Shown here piece after piece: positions 35,965-37,814 of a DNA stretch of 64,000 bases. The notes below the pieces were generated by a model that was given only the letters and a program-made list of their open reading frames with translations, did no database searches and was not told the DNA's origin. This stretch comes from an uncultured Pelagibacteraceae bacterium (GTDB lineage: Bacteria > Pseudomonadota > Alphaproteobacteria > Pelagibacterales > Pelagibacteraceae), in assembly GCA_902592375.1 (NCBI GenBank), contig CACJEG010000001.1:124001-188000 (forward strand), read 5' to 3'. The position numbers were made by a program, and so were the translations under genes. Position 1 is the stretch's first letter; each line of letters starts with the position of its first letter.

Positions 35965-36285
35965 ATGTCTATATTAGAAAAATATAGTGCTGCATTAAAA
36001 AATAAAGATGAAGCTGCCATGAATGAACTTTTGCATGACGACTTTAAATTCACAATGCACAAGTCAGGAAATGTTTTAACCAAAAGTGATGTTATCAAAT
36101 GGGCGATGAGTGGTGATATTAATCAAGATAAGGTTAGAATTGTTTATGAAAATGACGAAGTTGGTATTCACCATGCCTTCGTAACATTTAATGATGGTAA
36201 TGTTGAGGCGGTAATGGCAGTTTATAAATATGACAATGGAAAAATTGTCAGTTTAGAAACTGGTGCTACACCAATGCCAAAATAA
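35965..36285 (+). CDS. SnoaL/NTF2-like protein
   Basis: ILEKYSAALKNKDEAAMNELLHDDFKFTMHKSG, typical SnoaL N-terminal pattern. Confidence 0.7.
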   Translation: MSILEKYSAALKNKDEAAMNELLHDDFKFTMHKSGNVLTKSDVIKWAMSGDINQDKVRIVYENDEVGIHHAFVTFNDGNVEAVMAVYKYDNGKIVSLETGATPMPK

Positions 36286-36876
36286 GTGAGTGAAATTGAT
36301 TTTTATTTTTCGATAGGAAGCACATATACCTATCTATCTGTAACTAGAATACTTGATGTTGAAAAACAACATCAAGTAAAATTTAACTGGAAGCCTTTTT
36401 CAGTAAGAGCAATCATGAAAGAGATGAACAATATCCCATTTCCAAAGGATAAAATGAATAAAGTTAATTACATGTGGAGAGATATTGAAAGAAGAGCTGA
36501 AGGCTATGGTTTTTTTGCTAAAACACCAGTTCCCTATCCATTATCAGAATTTGATTTAGCGAACCAAATTGCAATCCTTGGTTTTGAAAAAAGTTGGGGA
36601 GAAAAATTTGTTATTCTAACTTATAAAAAATGGTTTCAAGAAGGTAAAGAACCAGCTATCGAGCCAAGTATCTCGGAAGTTTGCTCAGAATTAAAACTTG
36701 ATAAAGATGAAATTGTCTCTGAAGCAAAATCATCAGATATAGAAACAAAATATAATGAAAACACAAACTCAGCTCGTGAAAATAAAATTTTTGGTAGCCC
36801 ATCTTTTATTGTAAAAAATGAACTCTTTTGGGGGGATGATAGAATGGAAGATGCAATTAAATGGTCTCTTAAATAA
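36286..36876 (+). CDS. DsbA-family / 2-hydroxychromene-2-carboxylate isomerase-like protein
   Basis: IDFYFSIGSTYTYLSVTRI; KIFGSPSFIVKNELFWGDDRMEDA; GTG start directly after the preceding stop. Confidence 0.82.
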   Translation: MSEIDFYFSIGSTYTYLSVTRILDVEKQHQVKFNWKPFSVRAIMKEMNNIPFPKDKMNKVNYMWRDIERRAEGYGFFAKTPVPYPLSEFDLANQIAILGFEKSWGEKFVILTYKKWFQEGKEPAIEPSISEVCSELKLDKDEIVSEAKSSDIETKYNENTNSARENKIFGSPSFIVKNELFWGDDRMEDAIKWSLK

Positions 36877-36914: not shown

Positions 36915-37247
36915 ATGAGTCTTACAACTTCATATTTATTTTTAGGCATTGCAGTTTTTTTGGGTGTTACATCAAATAGTTTTGCTAAAAGTGCTGAAGG
37001 ATTTACTCTTCTAATTCCAAGCATAATCACTGCTATTACAATTGTATTATGTATGTACACTCTTTCATTAGTAATGAAAAATATTCCAATGGGAATTACT
37101 TATGCTTCCTTTGCAGGCTTAACAATTATAGCAACTGTTGTTGTGGGTATAATTAAATTTAATCAAGTACCCAATTTATATTCATTTATTGGTTTAGCTT
37201 TTATTATTGTTGGTGTTTTAATGGTTAACCTGTTAGGTAATAATTAA
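36915..37247 (+). CDS. SMR-family small membrane protein, subunit 1
   Basis: YLFLGIAVFLGVTSNSFAKSAEGFTLLIPS; GITYASFAGLT; VLMVNLLG; four TM. Confidence 0.82.
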   Translation: MSLTTSYLFLGIAVFLGVTSNSFAKSAEGFTLLIPSIITAITIVLCMYTLSLVMKNIPMGITYASFAGLTIIATVVVGIIKFNQVPNLYSFIGLAFIIVGVLMVNLLGNN

Positions 37248-37248
37248 T

Positions 37249-37476
37249 ATGATTAATAAAAAATACGCTCAACCTTTATTCATGATTTTTATGTCCTTTG
37301 GCATGAGTGTGATTATGAGTGGAGTTGTAGTTGCTGTAAACACTGGAGTTACAGATGGCTTTATAAGTAGATGGTTTTATTCTTGGATGTTTGCATTTCC
37401 AGTTGCATTAATTGCTGCCTTTATAATGGCTCCTATAATGAGACCTTTGGTTAATAAAATTGCATCAAAAGAATAA
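37249..37476 (+). CDS. DUF2798-like small membrane protein
   Basis: 75 aa, two TM; FMSFGMSVIMSGVVVAVNTG ... FPVALIAAFIMAPIMRPLVNKI. Confidence 0.75.
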   Translation: MINKKYAQPLFMIFMSFGMSVIMSGVVVAVNTGVTDGFISRWFYSWMFAFPVALIAAFIMAPIMRPLVNKIASKE

Positions 37477-37478
37477 TC

Positions 37479-37814
37479 ATGAAACCTTTATTTGGATATT
37501 TATTTTTAGCTATTGGGATTTCTTTTGGTATTGCATCAAATAGTTTAGCTAAAATTTCTGAGGGATTTACCAAACTTACACCATCTGTTTTATGCATATT
37601 ATTTATGTGTATTACAATGTTTTCAATTGCAAAAGCAATGCACGCTCTTCCAGTTGGTTTTGCTTACGCAACATATAGCGGTTTAACTGTAACTGGGGTT
37701 GTTCTTTTTGCAGTATTAAAATTTAATCAAGTGCCTAATCTTTATGGAATAATTGGAATTATTTTAATTATTATTGGTGTAATAATGGTTAATTATCTTG
37801 GACGACTGAACTGA
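37479..37814 (+). CDS. SMR-family small membrane protein, subunit 2
   Basis: YLFLAIGISFGIASNSLAKISEGFTKLTPS; GFAYATYSGLT; VIMVNYLG. Confidence 0.82.
   Translation: MKPLFGYLFLAIGISFGIASNSLAKISEGFTKLTPSVLCILFMCITMFSIAKAMHALPVGFAYATYSGLTVTGVVLFAVLKFNQVPNLYGIIGIILIIIGVIMVNYLGRLN

Follow-up and report, generated by a model that had tools for sequence, protein, structure and literature searches.

A Pelagibacterales-specific clade of SMR proteins without the central glutamate: a possible fifth subtype of uncoupled carriers

The central glutamate of SMR proteins carries protons and binds cations. What can SMR proteins do that lack it? The question is raised by a locus in the window, the whole stretch of 64,000 nucleotides that we analysed (contig 1, bases 124001-188000, in a Pelagibacteraceae genome of 1.25 Mb, 95% complete). 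Here two SMR genes, S1 and S2, flank a gene for a DUF2798 protein. A sequence-only reading had described both SMR proteins as lacking the membrane glutamate, and had proposed a heteromeric complex with a function other than proton antiport, or a channel-like role for lipids or osmolytes. The genes of the locus and two upstream neighbours are:

36915..37247, + strand: S1, 4-TM SMR protein, 110 aa (PF00893, 61.5 bits, E=1.1e-16)
37249..37476, + strand: DUF2798 small membrane protein, 75 aa (PF11391, E=4.4e-19)
37479..37814, + strand: S2, 4-TM SMR protein, 111 aa (PF00893, 63.7 bits, E=2.3e-17)
36286..36876, + strand: DsbA-like thioredoxin-fold protein, upstream of S1 (PF01323)
35965..36285, + strand: SnoaL/DUF4440-like protein, upstream of S1 (neighbour only)

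S1, the DUF2798 gene and S2 run head to tail on one strand, 1-2 bases apart in the ORF calls, and the DUF2798 gene is the sole copy detected in the window's genome. The DsbA-like and SnoaL/DUF4440-like genes are neighbours; the former also neighbours S1/S2 in many close relatives, and we do not propose it as a member of the system. The 3' ends of S2 and of a convergent DUF952 gene share 22 bases (window 37793-37814). A third SMR gene lies on another contig of the same genome (L001; G000:C9:6211-6525, - strand). Its product is canonical, with E14 and W63 present, and has a proline at the position of EmrE K22 (EVAGTMLLP), as do its SAR11 relatives.

We compared S1 and S2 with EmrE, whose numbering is used here for E14, T18, K22, Y40, F44, Y60, W63 and G67. 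Searched with phmmer against the EmrE chains, both proteins (S2, 2.2e-14; S1, 8.9e-12) gave single ungapped alignments of ~103 columns each. The E14 column is Gly17 in S1 and in S2, and the W63 column is F66 in S1 and Y66 in S2. Both proteins replace T18 with Asn, and in both the GXG hinge reads GLT. They are 45% identical to each other, and each has a single acidic residue, loop residue E28 (EmrE E25). The sequence-only reading had left room for a shifted functional glutamate; the gap-free alignments, together with the lack of any acidic residue in the helices, rule one out. The ORF coordinates, motifs and residue positions on which that reading was built proved correct, including the glycine at E14, the aromatic exchange at W63 and the DUF2798 gene between the two SMR genes, which the PF11391 match confirms.

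Both proteins are members of the SMR family, since their PF00893 scores exceed the curated cut-off of 23.7 bits and each has four TM segments. The AF2 monomer model of S2 (pLDDT 86.8) contains four helices, and its fold comes closest in the PDB to those of Gdx-Clo and EmrE (TM 0.78-0.82, normalised by query length; E ~1e-4). A model of S1 fused to S2 through a linker reached a pLDDT of 35.7 and was discarded. The mean K+R bias was near zero for both proteins (S1, -0.56; S2, -0.04), so the opposite biases of paired heterodimer subunits were not seen. A near-zero bias is typical of dual-topology SMRs, not of a pair with fixed opposite topologies.

How far does the missing glutamate extend? By sequence, S1 and S2 belong to an SMR clade specific to Pelagibacterales. 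A profile search with S1/S2 found relatives in 136 of the 197 sampled genomes of the order, a count that includes canonical SMRs. Complete proteins of the Gly14 clade score at least 141 bits, whereas the best matches outside the order score at most 91; absence outside Pelagibacterales rests on 289 genomes of the class and 299 of the phylum, with position 14 read for the best hits and 40 weaker regions. All 215 distinct clade sequences carry G14, N18, K22 and Y60. The W63 column is Y in 112 (S2 type) and F in 103 (S1 type), and G67 of the hinge has become T (193), C (21) or A (1). Across the same 215 sequences Y40 has become I or M and F44 mostly M or I. In the clade the position of Gdx-Clo W16 (EmrE G17) holds Ser or Ala, with one Thr, instead of the Gdx tryptophan. 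As the sequence-only reading had stated for S1 and S2, no acidic helix residue takes the place of the glutamate, in these two proteins or in the clade: among the distinct core sequences the E25 column may also hold D, N, Q or A, and 26/203 lack acidic residues altogether.

Outside the clade, the 73 nearest relatives retain W63 in 72 cases, and all 70 that are free of gaps at position 14 have E14. Gly14 occurs in 215/215 sequences within the clade versus 0/70 outside it and is thus not due to chance. A weaker-hit sample (43 sequences from 40 further regions) included one sequence without E14, a distant alphaproteobacterial 4-TM protein (L298:40-399, - strand) that matches EamA better than SMR (42.7 versus 27.5 bits). 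It reads G14-Q18-K22, the small-plus-amide TM1 pattern also seen in ArnE. On one single-cell contig (L124:134-1030) the start of S1 lies in a different frame from the remainder, probably a frameshift, either real or an assembly error. A viral origin was discarded: a scan of viral contigs gave no relative, and viral fold matches were weak. In the open-access literature we found no publication on a Gly14 SMR clade.

We then asked where the clade arose. Four SMRs of Pelagibacteraceae close to the clade (L235, L236, L243 and L244; genera g3, g6 and g8) score 116-124 bits against the clade profile and retain E14, T18, W63 and GXG. In the tree, which is built on only ~100 alignment columns, the order from outside to inside is canonical Qac-type SMRs, the E14 Pelagibacteraceae proteins and the Gly14 clade (support 100/98), which splits into S1 (98/96) and S2 (98/97). 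When eleven columns of the pocket and hinge were left out, support for the Gly14 branch fell to 92/61, and it was single in 95% of bootstrap trees; the S1 and S2 branches stayed strong. A SAR11 sister group that bears E14, W63 and GXG suggests a single loss. One loss of E14, followed by duplication into S1 and S2, is therefore the simplest reading of the tree, though not a proven one; the common ancestor would have been a proton-coupled SMR of the Qac type. Purifying selection acts on both genes (median dN/dS 0.068 for S1 and 0.191 for S2), which rules out pseudogenes. Two genomes (G002 and G006) carry an E14-retaining sister SMR and, elsewhere in the same genome, a Gly14 S1.

Do S1, S2 and the DUF2798 protein form a unit? 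We fetched 80 loci as close relatives of S2. S1 was adjacent to S2 in all of them, with DUF2798 between the pair in 51 (spacing 564-565 bases) and missing from between it in 29 (spacing 333-336 bases). In these loci the synteny seen in the window held for the two SMR genes and in part for DUF2798. Gene order varies within genus g1 (for example DUF-S1-S2 and S1-S2-DUF), and another genus has DUF-S2-S1. No DUF2798 gene was found near the SMR genes in loci of g4, of other genera or of the second family, f2. Conversely, none of nine DUF2798 loci from other Alphaproteobacteria had an SMR gene within ~1.5 kb, and DUF2798 was rejected as a general SMR partner. The open-access literature gave one publication on DUF2798, an unrelated one. 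The SMR pair is not obligatory either. Each of ten g4 genomes (92-98% complete) encodes a single PF00893 protein, of S2 type in the g4 loci that were read, and in one f2 genome (G299, 98% complete) S1 is the only SMR. The lone S2 of g4 and the lone S1 of G299 indicate that each protein works without the other, without DUF2798 and without a canonical SMR in some lineages. The heteromer suggested from the window alone therefore does not hold as an obligate one, and DUF2798 is not a necessary part of it.

The neighbouring genes conflict and name no single substrate. The g1 pair occupies a variable region with cysK on one side and DUF952/DUF924/inositol-phosphatase-like genes on the other. The S2 gene of g4 adjoins genes for a solute-binding protein and two permeases, or lies near DAGK, metallophosphoesterase and glycosyltransferase genes. 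One phosphonate-uptake-like operon (L044:553-4181, + strand) holds S2 between phnE, of phnCDE, and an EamA gene of the phn_DUF6 type. In g2, S1 is found within an ABC importer operon (L259:2984-6558, - strand), between livH/urtB-like and livM/urtC-like permease genes. In g6 the order is mtnP-mtnA-S1 (L255:2081-4364, + strand), S1 starting on the last base of the mtnA frame; a speD-speE fusion gene nearby completes a methylthioadenosine/polyamine context. In f2, S1 overlaps a PAP2 gene, which, like the DAGK, metallophosphoesterase and glycosyltransferase genes of g4, is a neighbour of lipid type. As the lineages disagree, the lipid or osmolyte channel role proposed earlier stands as one of several readings.

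We compared the clade with known SMR systems. S1 and S2 share with the Qac subtype (EmrE, QacC, EbrA) the fold, the length, the ungapped alignment, Y60 and the E25-G-F loop, and the nearest relatives outside the clade are E14/W63/GXG SMRs of the Qac kind. However, they lack E14, T18, Y40, W63 and GXG, and the best NCBIfam match of S1, QacCGHJ, scores 79.5 bits, far below its cut-off of 160. The E14 Pelagibacteraceae SMRs are the sister group and have the KYNQIPN-type loop in common with the clade but keep E14, T18, W63 and GXG. Paired SMRs (EbrAB, MdtIJ, YkkCD, YvaE/YvaD) are likewise encoded by adjacent paralogous genes, and YvaD has lost E14 (PMC2716321); here, on the contrary, both proteins lack E14, each also occurs alone, and there is no opposite charge bias. 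The lipid subtype comes nearest at the site itself. E. coli ArnE reads S14-Q18-K22 and ArnF A14-Q18, so that in these proteins as in S1/S2 a small residue replaces the central glutamate and residue 18 is an amide, with Y60 kept and W63 and GXG lost. The residues differ (Gly/Asn, not Ser/Gln), there is no arn-type operon, and ArnE matches EamA better than SMR (40.9 versus 25.6 bits), the reverse of S1 and S2. S1 reaches 16.8 bits against the ArnE model (cut-off 92) and S2 17.3 against the ArnF model (cut-off 99). Such scores point to a likeness of site, not of ancestry, and the mode of S1/S2 is best read as resembling that of the ArnE/ArnF subtype, the site having probably been lost independently.

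The central glutamate is essential in the Gdx, Qac and polyamine subtypes; lipid SMRs, in which proton coupling may be absent, often have Asn in its place, and proton-coupled SMRs have a GXG hinge in TM3 (PMC9574504). Neither E14 nor the GXG hinge of the proton-coupled subtypes occurs in the clade. Because no subunit retains E14 and the helices contain no other carboxylate, we strongly infer that S1 and S2 are incapable of EmrE-type H+/cation antiport. The earlier proposal of a non-proton-antiport function is supported to this extent: both proteins lack the site of Glu14-based antiport. Retention of the fold and of the tyrosine speaks for a carrier that alternates access, probably uncoupled and with a non-cationic substrate. 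S1 and S2 no longer have the central glutamate, the cage of aromatic residues (Y40, F44, W63) or the hinge; they retain the SMR fold of four TM helices and the "switch" tyrosine Y60, which is invariant. The central cavity would therefore be uncharged, with the invariant Asn18 and Ser/Thr62. They would form an antiparallel dimer, a homodimer where S1 or S2 occurs alone and a homodimer or S1/S2 heterodimer where both occur, with DUF2798 as an optional accessory. Alternating access without proton coupling would let a substrate that is neutral, zwitterionic or linked to a lipid equilibrate across the inner membrane. The sequence facts, phylogeny, selection, monomer fold and independence of the genes are grounded in the analysis itself; that the SMR-fold dimer, with its switch tyrosine and no proton or cation site, carries or flips non-cationic substrates without coupling is in our view an evenly balanced proposition.

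Coupling may instead have moved to another residue, such as K22 in TM1 or an Asn18/Tyr60 network, with anions or zwitterions as the cargo. K22 and N18 are both universal in the clade, as against 50/70 and 0/70 canonical sequences, a pocket without acids would suit an anionic substrate, and in one lineage S2 lies amid phosphonate-uptake genes. K22 is common in ordinary SMRs, however, and hence not a new feature, and we found no precedent for lysine coupling in SMRs in the open-access literature; we regard relocated coupling as rather unlikely. It is also unlikely that S1 and S2 are non-transporting subunits, pairing with a canonical E14 SMR or some other membrane protein so as to stabilise or regulate it, as YvaD may do beside YvaE. 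YvaD, whose E14 was lost and which probably descends from the adjacent YvaE (PMC2716321), is a precedent; a canonical SMR is encoded on another contig of the window's genome, and one genome places S1 between livH and livM. But the ten g4 genomes and G299 contain no other SMR, the gene contexts are inconsistent, and a switch tyrosine present in 215/215 sequences speaks for a transport cycle.

An obligate S1-DUF2798-S2 complex with one dedicated function would account for the fixed spacing in 51/80 loci and for DUF2798 staying beside the SMR genes through several rearranged orders within g1. The 29/80 pairs without DUF2798 between them, the S2-only and S1-only genomes, and the g4 and f2 loci, which have no DUF2798 nearby, contradict it as a general rule; at most it could apply to the lineage of the window, and we consider it very improbable. 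Loss of the catalytic residue might suggest decaying relics of drug exporters. This we give next to no credence, as it is refuted by the selection result (dN/dS of 0.07 and 0.19, with invariant replacement residues), and the genes persist in most sampled genomes of the SAR11 family despite genome streamlining.

Taken together, these results lead us to propose, tentatively and with slightly less than even confidence, a fifth SMR subtype confined to Pelagibacterales, which would have arisen by one loss of the coupling glutamate and hinge, followed by the S1/S2 duplication, and would carry or flip a non-cationic metabolite or lipid of SAR11 without coupling. SMRs are a standard model of proton-coupled transport, in which the central glutamate is deemed to be what powers the non-lipid subtypes. 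SAR11 are the ocean's most abundant bacteria, and a conserved EmrE-type branch without this glutamate is widespread among them: an abundant, streamlined order keeps such proteins alongside E14 sister proteins. The E14 sisters and the Gly14 clade offer a natural comparison before and after the loss, suited to tests of how coupling disappears and of the role left to an SMR, and the Gly14 SMRs point to a further transport function in SAR11.
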